The notes under the pieces: model-generated
The model's database searches: none
What the model saw: the letters and a program-made list of their open reading frames with translations, nothing else
What the model was told of the DNA's origin: nothing
Part shown: piece after piece, positions 11,364 to 16,396 of the stretch
Position numbering within the stretch: position 1 is the stretch's first letter
Layout: every line of letters begins with the position of its first letter
Translations under genes and position numbers: made by a program
Source of the DNA: a virus
IMG/VR virus record: IMGVR_UViG_3300010160_000238
Location: 1-22,908 of that record
Reading direction: 5' to 3' (one strand)
DNA length: 22,908 bases

Positions 11364-12307
11364 GACAGTGCCTTCTCCCCATGTAGAGCGTGCTTTGCGT
11401 TTTCAATTCCGTAGACTATCTCAGATTTACTCATAGCGCCAACATCCTTAACACTAGAGCGCTCAACCCAGTCAATCCCAGAGTAATCAAAGAACCAGCA
11501 CTCAAACCACATGTCAATAGATTTTTTTAGAAAATCTTGAGAAGCTTGATGACCGGCCTCATCGTTATCCATTGCAACAATTACACGATCCGCACCCTTG
11601 ATTACGTTTAATTGATCTTTAGATACCGCGGTTCCGTAAGTAGAAACTCCTCCTAGAACCCCTACAGAAGCCATACGAGCAACATCAAGAGGCGACTCAA
11701 CAACTACCATCACTCCGCCCTTGTATTGCTGGTAACCAAACAACGAATGGCTTTTCTGAATACCGGCGGGATAATTTCTAAAGTAACGTCCCTTAGAGCC
11801 CTTCTCCTGCCAACCAAGTAATTTCCCAGTCATGTCACGGATAGGAAGAATCCAACACTCTTTACGAGAGTCATACAAAATTCCATACAACGCAGCAGCC
11901 TCTGGCGTTATTCCACGGCTTTGTAAAAGCTCAACTGGTGGCGCTACATAAGCAGCAAGGTTAGCCTCTGTAATAGTAATTGAATTTTCAACTACTTTTG
12001 GTTTTGGATTAAGCGCTCGCTCTAAACGCATTGATAAGTCGCTGGTAGTTGTTTTAACCCACTCGTCAGCTTGCTCCATAGGGATACCGTTAACGTATGA
12101 AACAAGATACTGCAGTCCACCACGGAATCCGCATGAGAAACAGTTATGCGCCCCTGTGTCTGCGTTGATTGACCATGATGGGTTGTGATCTTCCTTGCCT
12201 GTTCTATCAAAGTGACCGGGGCATAAACCCTTTACCTCTGAACCACGAACACCATAAGTTTCAATACCTAAACCTTTAAGAAAATCTTCCATCTCTTCTA
12301 CTGTCAT
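11360..12307 (-). CDS. DnaG-like primase with CHC2 zinc finger and TOPRIM domain
   Basis: The 315-residue protein has an N-terminal zinc finger (CPGH at 29-32 and CFSC at 56-59, the CHC2 form). A TOPRIM catalytic core follows: VVVESPLDVARM with Glu204 and AMDNDEAG with Asp247 and Asp249. It makes RNA primers for the replisome. It is shorter than bacterial DnaG (about 580) and lacks the C-terminal helicase-binding domain, so contact with the DnaB-like helicase encoded directly upstream must use another surface. The two genes overlap as ATGA. The TOPRIM domain also occurs in topoisomerases and nucleases, but the zinc finger settles the primase call. Confidence 0.9.
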   Translation of the reverse strand: MTVEEMEDFLKGLGIETYGVRGSEVKGLCPGHFDRTGKEDHNPSWSINADTGAHNCFSCGFRGGLQYLVSYVNGIPMEQADEWVKTTTSDLSMRLERALNPKPKVVENSITITEANLAAYVAPPVELLQSRGITPEAAALYGILYDSRKECWILPIRDMTGKLLGWQEKGSKGRYFRNYPAGIQKSHSLFGYQQYKGGVMVVVESPLDVARMASVGVLGGVSTYGTAVSKDQLNVIKGADRVIVAMDNDEAGHQASQDFLKKSIDMWFECWFFDYSGIDWVERSSVKDVGAMSKSEIVYGIENAKHALHGEKALS

Positions 12308-13545
12308 GCGTCTTCACCTGACATCTCACGGAAGGTACCTTCGTCCCAAGCCCACGTTAAGAATGTAGAACCAGGTCCAGAGTTACGGCTTGCAAGAACA
12401 CTGAGGATGCGAGTCTGGTCATCGCTTTCTTCTGGCTTTTCAAGACCGAACAATACGTCAGCATCTTGGAAGAATGAAGATGAGTAACCGATTGAGTTAG
12501 CGGTCAGTTTACCTTTGCTCTTCTTCCAATCCAAGGACTGAGTTGTAATAATAATTGGAATCTTAAAACTCTGAGCCAAACGCTTAAACCCACGGGTTAG
12601 ATTAGTTAGGGCTTGCGGAGTGTTCTGCTCACCAGTCTGCTCGTCTGTCATCAAGTACATACCGTCAATAAAAAGAATGCTTGGACGATGTAACTGTAAC
12701 TTAGCGGTAACGCCAGACAAAGTTGATCCTGATGAAGAGTCAACAAGCCAAAACTTTTCAGCATCATTACGCATTTTGTTAGTAACAAGTGTTTGGTATC
12801 TCGCCTCTTCGTCGGGGCGTAAAGTTCCAGTAATTAAACGCTGGTGTGAGATTCGAGCACGCATTGAGTCGTAGCGGTCTTCTTGCTCACGGTTGCTCAT
12901 CTCAAACGAGTAGAACATAGGCATTACCTCAGACTGAGTATGCACGTTAATTGCAACCTGCATAGCAACTGTTGACTTACCTGTCTTAGGTGTAGCGGTA
13001 ATAACAATTAACTGTTCGTTCTGCAAACCATTAGTAACCTTGTCAATAGTTGGAAACCCTGTTGGGTAACCAAGTAGACCGTTTGGAAGTAACTTGCGCT
13101 CTTGATAACGAGCCCAACGCCGGTCAAGTTCTTTGCCTTCGGTAATATCGATATCGTTGGTTTGACTAAACCCAGCTTCGTCCATTTTAAGAACGCCAGA
13201 TTGAAGAACTTGAAGAGCGCCCTCATGATCCTGCTCACGGTCAATCTTCTCAATAGCATCACGAAGTATGTTGGCGGTGTAAACCTTGCGACGTGCTGAA
13301 GATAAAGAGTCAAGAAGATACCCAGTAGTGTCATTAACTGGAACTACTTCATAAGAGGGGTAGTTATCTTTAATAACATCAAGGCTTGGGCACTCACCAT
13401 AACGTGCGTAGTGCTCACGTATGAATACCCAAATTTTTTTATCGTTATCATCTGAAAACCAAGATTGATTTACGTTGCGGTCAAATAACGGGGTTAGGTC
13501 TCTATCAGTAAGAGCCTTGCTTAATAATCTCTTCTCGTTGTTCAT
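12304..13545 (-). CDS. DnaB-like replicative helicase
   Basis: The 413-residue protein has an N-terminal helical domain (about 1-125) and a RecA-type ATPase domain. Walker A is ATPKTGKS (184-191), Walker B is ILFIDG (Asp294), FYSFEMS lies between them, and ITTQSLDWKKSKGK and SSSFFQDAD follow. It is a hexameric 5'-3' helicase at the fork. The length is slightly below E. coli DnaB (471), with a short N-terminal domain. Position 184 is Ala where most Walker A motifs have Gly, which is tolerated in this fold. It sits between an unknown gene and the primase gene, and the loader gene lies two genes upstream. Confidence 0.9.
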   Translation of the reverse strand: MNNEKRLLSKALTDRDLTPLFDRNVNQSWFSDDNDKKIWVFIREHYARYGECPSLDVIKDNYPSYEVVPVNDTTGYLLDSLSSARRKVYTANILRDAIEKIDREQDHEGALQVLQSGVLKMDEAGFSQTNDIDITEGKELDRRWARYQERKLLPNGLLGYPTGFPTIDKVTNGLQNEQLIVITATPKTGKSTVAMQVAINVHTQSEVMPMFYSFEMSNREQEDRYDSMRARISHQRLITGTLRPDEEARYQTLVTNKMRNDAEKFWLVDSSSGSTLSGVTAKLQLHRPSILFIDGMYLMTDEQTGEQNTPQALTNLTRGFKRLAQSFKIPIIITTQSLDWKKSKGKLTANSIGYSSSFFQDADVLFGLEKPEESDDQTRILSVLASRNSGPGSTFLTWAWDEGTFREMSGEDA

Positions 13546-13952: not shown

Positions 13953-14264
13953 TTAGAAAACTTCAATCTTGCCAAAAGCTAATATGAAGTCTCTGTAAGC
14001 CTCAATAGAGTGCTTTGCTTTCTCTGTGTCTTCATCTGTTGCGCGTTTAGATATCTCAAGCGGATAGGAGCCTCCGTTAGAGTTAATGCGTGCTTGAACA
14101 AAACGAGTGTGCTTGCAAGTAGTTCGACCCTTAAACCCAGCGCAAGTACATAGCAAGTCACCGTTTGGCTTTGTGCTTACTTCGTAAATGCTAGGGCCCG
14201 GTGTTTGAGTCGGACTTAAAAAAACCTGAAGCAACTTCGGTTGATCCATTAAACGTCCTCTCAT
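13953..14264 (-). CDS. SWIM-type zinc-finger protein
   Basis: The 103-residue protein contains LLCTCAGFKGRTTCKH, with Cys39, Cys41, Cys50 and His52 in the C-x-C-x8-C-x-H order of the SWIM domain. SWIM fingers bind DNA or proteins and occur in recombination factors and SNF2 ATPases. Two starts are possible. ATG at 14264 overlaps the loader stop as ATGA. ATG at 14249 has GAGAGGA six bases upstream and would drop five residues. The gene sits between the loader and the helicase, so a link to helicase loading or to the SNF2-type helicase of the same operon is possible. This is inference. Confidence 0.75.
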   Translation of the reverse strand: MRGRLMDQPKLLQVFLSPTQTPGPSIYEVSTKPNGDLLCTCAGFKGRTTCKHTRFVQARINSNGGSYPLEISKRATDEDTEKAKHSIEAYRDFILAFGKIEVF

Positions 14265-14941
14265 CTTCGTAGGTCTCCTTTAGTTGATTTTAAATCAATA
14301 TTTAAAAATGCTTCGTGAGCAAAGCTAGCGGTAGCCTCACCGTAAAAGTCTTGCCATTTCATAAGGGGAATATTAGAGGTAACAATAGTCGGAAGACCAG
14401 CATTAAATCTACTACGAAGGACATGGTGAAGAGTACTTTGATTCCAGCCACTAGCCATATTGTGCTCACGACCAACATCATCTAAAACCAAAACCTTTAC
14501 ATTACGACGGCTATCAGAGGACTCTCCCATAATGCCTTCATAAAGCATCTCTCTGCTTTCCTCAATCTGATCGCCCATGGTTTCACCTTTAAGATCGATA
14601 AGACTTGCGTAAGTAGTGAAGTAACAAGGACGCACATCGTTAAGTTCAAAAATGTCAAGGGAGGAAGTTCTCATCATGTTTTGAATTAGTGCTGCAACCA
14701 AAGTTGTTTTTCCATTACCGGGATCGCCATACAAAGCAACACCACGACCGCAGGTTCTCTTTCCTACTGCGTTAATAATCTTTCCGTCTTGAACTAAAGT
14801 TTCCCAACCCTGTAAAGCCTCAAGATATTTTTTATCAACAGAATTGCAGTCTGAGTATTCCCAACCTTGTAAATGCTTTGGTATACCAGCAGCCCTAATC
14901 CAGCTCTTGCGCCGAATCTTTAGCTCTTCAACATTAAACAT
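14261..14941 (-). CDS. DnaC/IstB-like helicase loader ATPase
   Basis: The 226-residue protein is a AAA+ ATPase with Walker A GDPGNGKT (72-79) and Walker B VLVLDDVG (Asp154, Asp155). VTSNIPL near the end supplies the sensor I region. The length and layout match DnaC and phage helicase loaders, which place the DnaB hexamer on single-stranded DNA at the origin. It follows the initiator gene (overlap of eight bases), an order also seen in many phages with an initiator and loader pair (lambda O and P by analogy). An IstB transposition role is unlikely because no transposase is near. Cys64 (TCGRG) lies just before the P-loop. Confidence 0.87.
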   Translation of the reverse strand: MFNVEELKIRRKSWIRAAGIPKHLQGWEYSDCNSVDKKYLEALQGWETLVQDGKIINAVGKRTCGRGVALYGDPGNGKTTLVAALIQNMMRTSSLDIFELNDVRPCYFTTYASLIDLKGETMGDQIEESREMLYEGIMGESSDSRRNVKVLVLDDVGREHNMASGWNQSTLHHVLRSRFNAGLPTIVTSNIPLMKWQDFYGEATASFAHEAFLNIDLKSTKGDLRR

Positions 14942-15830
14942 CTTCTCCCCTTAAAATCCGTTGCGCTTTATCCCAAGCCTCTTCTGCCATAAGAACGTCT
15001 GCATCCGTGTTGACGGATAGTACGGCTCCCTTTACCAAACCCGGTAATCGGCTTACGAACAATCGCCACAATACCTCGGCGTCTTTGTATTCGCTAATTG
15101 AGATTTGCCTAAAGAATAAATCCATAGCGGCTACCTCGGTAACACTATCAGTGCCTAAACGTTTTCTAGCAGAAGCAAGGGCTCCAGAGAATTTACTTTG
15201 AGTAACTGACCATGGCTGAATATTCCAGTAACTGTGAATCCGCTCAGCAAACTCAAAACACACGTCAGTGACAGACCACTCGGCAACTGGCATGGTGTGA
15301 CGTTTTTGAAACCTGCTCACATGCGTTGTCATAGATTTTTTATCAAAATCAGACTTTCGCTTCTTTTCAGCGGCGGCACGACGCTTCTTCGGATCTTCGG
15401 AATCTTCGGAAGGTTCGGCGGTAGAGTCGAAAAATTCGTAACCCATCGTTTTATACTCCTCGGTCTCTAAAACCAATCTCGACTTCGTCGAGAGATTTGG
15501 TTTACTTATAACAGTAGAATTAGTAATTCTGCTTATATGCTCATTACTGTAATCAGAAGTCACGTTATGTGACTCCACAACTTGAGACGGCACAATACCA
15601 AAAAATGCACGATTTGCTTTTTCAGTTAACACCGAAACAGTCATAATCTTGTTACCGATTCGTTGCTGACTTGTGAGAATGTAGGAGTTATCCCTTAGTT
15701 CCTTCAAGCCACTCAACGCTGCCCTACGACCCACTCTAAAGTGATCCATCATAGTTTGGGCAGAGATGTTTAATGAGTGCTGATGAATTGCTAAAAGAAA
15801 CCCGTAGGCTTTTGGAGATAGGTCTTTCAC
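14934..15830 (-). CDS. Replication initiator-like protein with winged helix
   Basis: The 298-residue protein begins with a winged helix-turn-helix (about 1-80: SPKAYGFLLAIHQHS, SAQTMMDHFRVGRRAALSGL, then the wing KIMTVSVLTEKA). A low-complexity linker follows (about 85-165, ending in a Lys/Arg/Glu-rich helix KKRRAAAEKKRKSDFDKK). A helical C-terminal domain at about 175-295 (ARKRLGTDSVTEVAAMDLFF) probably contacts the loader. The layout resembles phage initiators of the lambda O or DnaD-like type. The codons for the linker are full of inverted and direct repeats, as in lambda O, where the origin lies inside the gene. It precedes the loader gene and follows an unknown gene with an ATGA overlap. 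Confidence 0.75.
   Translation of the reverse strand: MKDLSPKAYGFLLAIHQHSLNISAQTMMDHFRVGRRAALSGLKELRDNSYILTSQQRIGNKIMTVSVLTEKANRAFFGIVPSQVVESHNVTSDYSNEHISRITNSTVISKPNLSTKSRLVLETEEYKTMGYEFFDSTAEPSEDSEDPKKRRAAAEKKRKSDFDKKSMTTHVSRFQKRHTMPVAEWSVTDVCFEFAERIHSYWNIQPWSVTQSKFSGALASARKRLGTDSVTEVAAMDLFFRQISISEYKDAEVLWRLFVSRLPGLVKGAVLSVNTDADVLMAEEAWDKAQRILRGEDV
15385..15574. other. Candidate replication origin inside the initiator gene
   Basis: Within 190 bases there are three exact copies of TCTTCGGA (15386, 15394 and 15403) and a degenerate fourth (15412). There are also four inverted repeats: 15470-15503 (stem of 14 pairs with a three-base bulge), 15516-15530 (AGAATTA/TAATTCT), 15543-15553 (ATTAC/GTAAT) and 15558-15574 (AGTCAC/GTGACT). 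The stretch between 15497 and 15557 is A+T-rich. The region codes for the linker of the initiator (residues 86-149). The combination of iteron-like repeats, dyads and an A+T-rich block fits a phage origin. This is inference. Confidence 0.5.
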
Positions 15831-16396
15831 ACCACGCCAGCCTCTTTGAGCGCTTCCATAACCTTCTTGGTTATTAGCTCAGCAAGGTCAACCTTTACCT
15901 TAGGATCATTAGCCTTTACCTTAATCTCAGATTTTGGGATTTCCTCTGTAACGACCTCCTGGGGCTCGTTCTCACGTTCTATGTGTGACAACTCAACCAG
16001 ACCCATGCAAAGGTCGTAGGAGGGCACGGAAGCCTCTTGGAAGGCGTAAAAAGCAGCAGTCCCAAAGCCATCTTCCTCATCCCACAAAATGAACGCTTGA
16101 GTGTCCTCCCCACGAATCAGTTCGACTACAGCCGAGATTGGGTTTGAAGAGTTGTGAAGACTGGAGCTTCCAAGACTCATGATGACTGCGTTCTCTGGAG
16201 CTATGGCTATTGTTGGTATCTCAAGTTCTGCGGATACCTGATGCGCCCATATTTGCCCTTGACTTGGTCTATCTTGAAAAGGCAAAAGCAGTGTTACGTC
16301 TTTGCCGTTACCTCTGTAGTGATCTTCTAATAAAGCTTCTACGTTAACTCTTGTTGTTTCACCGTTACCGGCAATGACCAAAAATTTTGATCCCAT
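15827..16396 (-). CDS. Rossmann-like protein with acidic/basic C-terminal tail, function unknown
   Basis: The 189-residue protein has an alternating strand-helix pattern: KFLVIAGNG, VTLLLPFQ, IPTIAIAPE, AFILWDEED and SYDLCMGL as strands. This suggests a Rossmann-type fold of about 135 residues. A flexible charged linker (ENEPQEVVTEEIPKSEIKVKANDPKV) and a final amphipathic helix (ELITKKVMEALKEAG) follow; the helix may bind a partner. The WDEEDGFG loop could be an active or binding site, but I cannot name the family. The start has AGGGGGA four bases before ATG. It is the first gene of the replication block and ends as ATGA at the initiator, so a regulatory or initiation role is possible. Confidence 0.68.
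   Translation of the reverse strand: MGSKFLVIAGNGETTRVNVEALLEDHYRGNGKDVTLLLPFQDRPSQGQIWAHQVSAELEIPTIAIAPENAVIMSLGSSSLHNSSNPISAVVELIRGEDTQAFILWDEEDGFGTAAFYAFQEASVPSYDLCMGLVELSHIERENEPQEVVTEEIPKSEIKVKANDPKVKVDLAELITKKVMEALKEAGVV

Follow-up and report, generated by a model that had tools for sequence, protein, structure and literature searches.

Phage replication origins that lie inside initiator genes have so far been recognised by their repeats, and for most uncultivated phages the origin is unmapped. The locus described here raises the question of whether a dense group of inverted repeats within a phage initiator gene marks such an origin, and whether it is the DNA, the mRNA or the encoded protein that selection maintains. 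The DNA studied is IMG/VR virus record IMGVR_UViG_3300010160_000238, positions 1-22,908, all 22,908 nucleotides of which are referred to as the window. A sequence-only reading of this DNA had proposed that four dyads at 15470-15574, together with nearby direct repeats, form a complete phage origin embedded in the initiator gene.

The initiator gene and its neighbours

The dyads lie in a gene of 298 codons with a GTG start (14934..15830, minus strand, the strand that carries all main genes of the window), the product of which matches phrog_270 (replication initiation protein) with an E-value of 8e-7. The gene next to it encodes a DnaC-like helicase loader (14261..14941, minus strand; phrog_50, E 1.4e-27) that is likely the partner of the initiator, and the genes located 3′ of the initiator also include those for a DnaB-like helicase (12304..13545, minus strand), a primase, a SNF2-type helicase, a family A polymerase and RecA. 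An AlphaFold2 model based on 11 sequences, which has a mean pLDDT of 65 and was used for architecture only, predicts a two-domain protein in which a wHTH domain (residues 6-77) and a helical C-domain (residues 147-293) are joined by a disordered linker (residues 79-144, pLDDT <50). The linker-coding part (15399..15596, minus strand) houses all four dyads, in agreement with their earlier placement in the code for a flexible linker. The identification of the host gene as an initiator is likewise borne out by the phrog_270 match, the wHTH/linker/C-domain layout and the adjoining loader and DnaB genes.

Structure searches with the N-domain returned MarR-type wHTH proteins, the best with a weak E-value of 0.06. 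The viral models matched were uncultured-phage proteins and a RepA-like initiator from Gordonia phage VanLee (E 9e-4). The initiator protein has no relative among 50,697 named phage records, and a PDB sequence search gave no meaningful match. The 189-aa gene located 5′ of the initiator (15827-16396, minus strand) has no family match; its N-terminus resembles by eye those of LuckySocke gp104 and BRock gp120, which are likewise placed between tail and replication genes.

Relatives were collected from IMG/VR by protein and by DNA pattern, yielding a set of 11 distinct full-length genes (window included) and one partial gene, with 49-100% protein identity to the window. Matches to a 15-nt pattern were mostly due to chance. 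Among 84,980 genomes of bacteria and archaea, the core pattern has 17 matches, all of them chance matches that lack the rest of the element, which gives no sign of a host attachment site.

Dyads, core and hairpin under comparison

All four dyads are present in the window. These are an extended bulged hairpin, AAACCAA-TCTCGAC-TTC-GTCGAGA-gat-TTGGTTT, of 7+7 pairs with a 3-nt bulge (15470..15503); a 7-1-7 palindrome, AGAATTA-G-TAATTCT or AGAATTACTAATTCT (15516..15530); a 5-1-5 palindrome, ATTAC-T-GTAAT (15543-15553); and a 6-5-6 inverted repeat, AGTCAC-GTTAT-GTGACT (15558..15574; AGTCACATAACGTGACT in gene sense). Perfect dyad arms of at least 6 nt take up 40 nt of the stretch, and permutations that keep the protein and the codon usage fixed average 4.7 nt (P = 0.0008; P = 0.006 when the best stretch anywhere in the initiator gene is taken), and the DNA fold z-score against codon permutations is -4.3 for the coding strand and -4.8 for the complement. 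The stretch is the densest of the 22.9-kb window, and the contention that its density is not explained by the protein holds, the dyads being rarer in codon-shuffled controls. The A+T-richness ascribed to it is modest: 66% overall and 70% in the 60 bp of 15504-15563, a value reached by 3.7% of windows. Next in density within the window is a cluster of perfect dyads at 509-643, which is also A+T-rich and may be due to chance.

The dyads differ in their conservation among relatives. The 14-pair hairpin is conserved in its inner 7 pairs, and its outer AAACCAA/TTGGTTT arm (15470-15476 with 15497-15503) is limited to the window lineage and L004. The 7-1-7 palindrome is conserved, with compensatory and longer-centre variants; the 5-1-5 palindrome is not. 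The 6-5-6 repeat accompanies wHTH type 1 and retains 5/6 pairs with different letters in L004, and it is lost in L013 and L033. The nearby direct repeats, taken earlier as part of the origin, are an (A)TCTTCGGA unit that codes PSEDSED and is missing from most relatives. No iterons were found, only unconserved coding repeats, and the picture of a complete origin with direct repeats is not supported.

Three other parts are conserved, none of which had been listed in the sequence-only reading. Core part A, CAGTAATGAGCATATAAG (15532..15549, minus strand), is nearly invariant, and core part B, TTCTACTGTTATAAGTAA (15502..15519, minus strand), shows no variation as far as ...AGTAA in any relative, its frozen portion being ACTGTTATAAGTAA. 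Upstream of the core lies a TGTG-4-CACA dyad, TTGTGGAGTCACATAA (15565..15580, minus strand), of which TGTG...CA is found in all relatives. Across the ~48-nt core (residues 95-110), the codon is identical in 458/464 (99%) comparisons between identical residues, a figure that falls to 85% in residues 81-94 and to 39-63% for most of the gene. In L033 and L041, one additional nucleotide before GCAGAAT and two in the palindrome centre shift the reading frame, and GCAGAAT is retained though it is read as KQN, not SRI. In L007 and L034, AGAAATACTATTTCT replaces AGAATTACTAATTCT; both arms are altered and pairing is retained, with a difference of two amino acids. Variants of the palindrome with a longer centre are AGAATAAAACTTATTCT and AGAATAATAAATATTCT. 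The core is single-copy in the long contigs, and no second copy of the element was found.

The inner hairpin (15477..15493; TCTCGAC-GAA-GTCGAGA in gene sense) has a 7-bp stem and a 3-nt loop and lies exactly 8 nt past ACTGTTATAAGTAA in every relative, completing a fixed layout of core with palindrome, 8-nt spacer and hairpin. Its stem letters are free. Besides that of the window, six further stem types occur: CTCCGAC-GAA-GTCGGAG, CCTTGAC-GAA-GTCAAGG, CCTTGAC-AAA-ATCAAGG, TCGAGAC-GGA-GTCTCGA, TTTCGAC-AAA-GTCGAAA and CTTTGGC-GGA-GCCAAAG. Of their 49 distinct pairs, 48 are Watson-Crick, none is G-U and one is C·A (the closing pair in L013). In the alignment 98.6% of hairpin cells are paired, and two-sided changes have occurred at 5/7 pairs. 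The covariation score of 0.711 is reached by 0/500 shuffles (0.28 in shuffles), controls slid along the alignment so as to preserve relatedness score at most 0.260, and RNAalifold recovered the helix unprompted. The peptide encoded over the hairpin varies (NLSTKSR, QTPTKSE, PSLTKSR, HSLAEPK), and the shape therefore outlives the amino acids. A C-GNA-G loop is present in 5/7 stem types and an AAA loop in L034 and L013; in each long contig with a GNA loop, no 7-3-7 hairpin other than that of the element has a C-GNA-G loop. Free stem letters combined with a fixed size, loop and distance imply recognition of shape.

The synonymous freeze, the letters kept in a shifted frame and the compensatory pairs together show that selection on the element is on nucleotides and not on the protein. 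Part of the core does code a conserved peptide, STVIS, as would be expected if chance or protein-level constraint alone had shaped the stretch. That explanation is refuted by the codon permutations, the synonymous freeze, the shifted-frame letters, the covariation and the predicted disorder of the linker, and its probability is practically nil.

The N- and C-halves of the initiator gene swap independently among phages, and the element marks the junction. The window and L004 (L004:6645-7529 against window 14934-15830) share 59% nucleotide identity in the N-half and 98% in the C-half, with a sharp junction; the corresponding values are 57% and 77% for L008 and L013, and 85% and 63% for the window and L005. 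The exchanges in the window/L004 and L008/L013 pairs would suit a recombination hotspot, with the core kept as shared sequence for domain swaps between phages, but shared sequence would not account for stems that covary in different letters at a constant distance, nor for conserved letters in a shifted frame. A hotspot is accordingly a very improbable explanation of the element, and domain swapping may instead be a consequence of it.

A cis-acting DNA site or an mRNA element

Since a nucleotide-selected site lies in the linker-coding part of an initiator gene and beside a loader gene, an origin is the simplest explanation, and the element (~15470-15580) is probably a replication origin or helicase-loading site that acts in cis as DNA inside the initiator gene. 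The earlier suggestion of an embedded phage origin is consistent with constraint at the nucleotide level, as expected of an embedded cis element, and gains no support from strand composition. The wHTH domain is assumed to bind the core and/or the upstream dyads, after which the A+T-rich core would open and the hairpin would extrude or form on single-stranded DNA. The hairpin could then mark the assembly site of the C-domain, the DnaC-like loader and DnaB. The anatomy of the element and the selection on it are observed, and the steps of binding and opening are inferred from them. A more specific form of the proposal is an iteron-less origin defined by shape, with an invariant core, a palindrome of variable centre, a hairpin whose extrudable triloop positions the loader and a C-domain supplied from an internal start; in this full form it is offered tentatively, as a possibility that is rather less than even.

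Cumulative GC skew, which had been put forward as a check, has its minimum far from the element in three long contigs, 17 kb away in G001, 18 kb in G002 and 44 kb in G003, in a test that is weak because contigs may be incomplete and genes are co-oriented. Both GC and AT skew in these contigs mostly track gene orientation. Skew at fourfold sites in seven contigs shows no origin-type switch, the coding strand downstream being more C-rich, not G-rich. The skew thus lends no support to an origin and does not firmly refute one.

The gene also contains signals for an internal start. An in-frame ATG (15444-15446) at the beginning of the C-domain is preceded by GAGGAG (15456..15461, minus strand), a ribosome-binding site of which GAGG is present in all relatives, and GAGG with the in-frame ATG is found in 11/11 full-length genes. 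This arrangement, which had also escaped the sequence-only reading, suggests that the gene makes a second, short product consisting of the C-domain alone, predicted at 170 aa (14934..15446, minus strand). Under the origin proposal, such a product would be a loader-binding C-domain minus the DNA-binding half. The Streptomyces phages BRock, LuckySocke and pSt2308, which have baseplate, helicase and loader genes in common with the window, encode a C-domain-like protein of 151-157 aa directly before the loader in pSt2308 (L148:6352-6807) and LuckySocke (L147:6325-6798) and one gene earlier in BRock (L146:6124-6585). The pSt2308 protein, alone of the three, is weakly similar to the C-domain by itself (E 0.005 in a search against 26 proteins). 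These proteins lack the wHTH and begin with LGYDDVLSDLW or alike, compared with MGYEFFDSTAE in the window. The three phages were dropped from the comparison of the element, the gene before the loader being short and without a wHTH.

The internal start also bears on the main rival to an origin, a role in the mRNA. The palindrome and the hairpin may fold in the transcript, possibly as targets of the initiator or another protein, and so regulate how the initiator and, chiefly, the short C-domain product are translated. The GAGG and ATG follow the hairpin in all 11 genes, the ATG at a distance of 30 or 36 nt (measured in the seven stem types), and this near-constant distance would suit such a role also, as does an RNA fold z-score of -2.7 against dinucleotide shuffles. 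An mRNA structure is nonetheless unlikely: the lack of G-U among the distinct hairpin pairs is more in keeping with DNA than with RNA, most lineages have, on the mRNA strand of the palindrome, a C·A mismatch that would pair on the complement, Rfam gave no match up to an E-value of 1 in 14900-16000, and ribosomes on the full gene would melt the structure.

Non-pairs in the kept stems (L008, L013, L041) and in the palindrome flank read as C·A on the coding strand, which makes them G·T on the complement, an asymmetry that looks as if the complement strand folds, in too few cases to be sure. The GNA loop sits on the coding strand, whereas the wobble pattern sits on the complement, and the non-pairs have no simple fit with a coding-strand GNA loop. 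A cruciform would use both DNA strands.

A DNA site need not be an origin. Palindromes, TATAAG hexamers and the replication genes downstream on the same strand would also be expected of a regulator binding site or of an internal promoter or operator for those genes, but centre and spacer lengths differ by 1-3 nt in L033 and L041, which a dimer site or promoter would hardly tolerate, and the covarying hairpin would play no part. Regulation in place of an origin is therefore improbable, more so than a role in the mRNA.

If the element is an origin, then an origin does not require repeats and can be organised around a hairpin selected for its shape and not its sequence, and such sites could be found by comparison alone, from synonymous freeze and covariation in the linkers of initiators. 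If it acts in the mRNA instead, it would represent a novel means of controlling a phage initiator.

Comparison with known origins and hairpins

A limited search of the open-access literature yielded no description of an element of this form, and several known systems share parts of it. The lambda O protein has a DNA-binding half and a loader-binding half, with the origin-coding part between them. As in the present gene, oriλ lies inside the initiator gene, O, and contains inverted-repeat sites; its DNA is A+T-rich, as that of the present element is to a modest degree. A 19-bp iteron occurs in several copies in lambda, in contrast to the single core and the shape-selected hairpin found here (PMC5043065). 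In SPP1, oriL lies inside the replisome organizer gene, gene 38, by the genes for the loader gp39 and the DnaB-type gp40, an arrangement like that of the window, and it differs in its direct repeats, its A+T-rich unwinding element and the existence of a second origin, oriR (PMC6316719). The present site therefore shares with the lambda and SPP1 origins its position within an initiator coding sequence, the adjoining loader gene and selection at the nucleotide level, and departs from them in having one copy of its core where several iterons would be expected.

The hairpin resembles those at the promoters of the phage N4 virion RNA polymerase, which have a 5-7 bp stem with partly free letters, a 3-nt loop of the form 5′G...A3′ and a closing C-G pair, and which need the C-G pair and the G-N-A loop to extrude under supercoiling (PMC4496689). 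Five of the seven stem types conform to this description and two have an AAA loop. In N4 the hairpins serve as early promoters, and the polymerase that uses them has ~3,500 aa; the present phages have a single hairpin, and a search for a giant virion RNA polymerase gene in four long contigs, which may be incomplete, found no open frame longer than 1214 codons.

Internal in-frame starts within initiator genes are known for TrfA-44/33, R6K pi, RepB′ and RepR′ (PMC6854812). The gene described here is predicted to have the same feature; its short form would lose the whole wHTH. A working analogy for the hairpin itself is provided by the ABC primosome, in which an initiator-bound hairpin of single-stranded DNA (the A-site hairpin, with its DnaA box) can load DnaB from DnaB-DnaC (PMC6127211). 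The stem of that hairpin carries a fixed binding sequence, whereas the stem letters of the present element vary freely.
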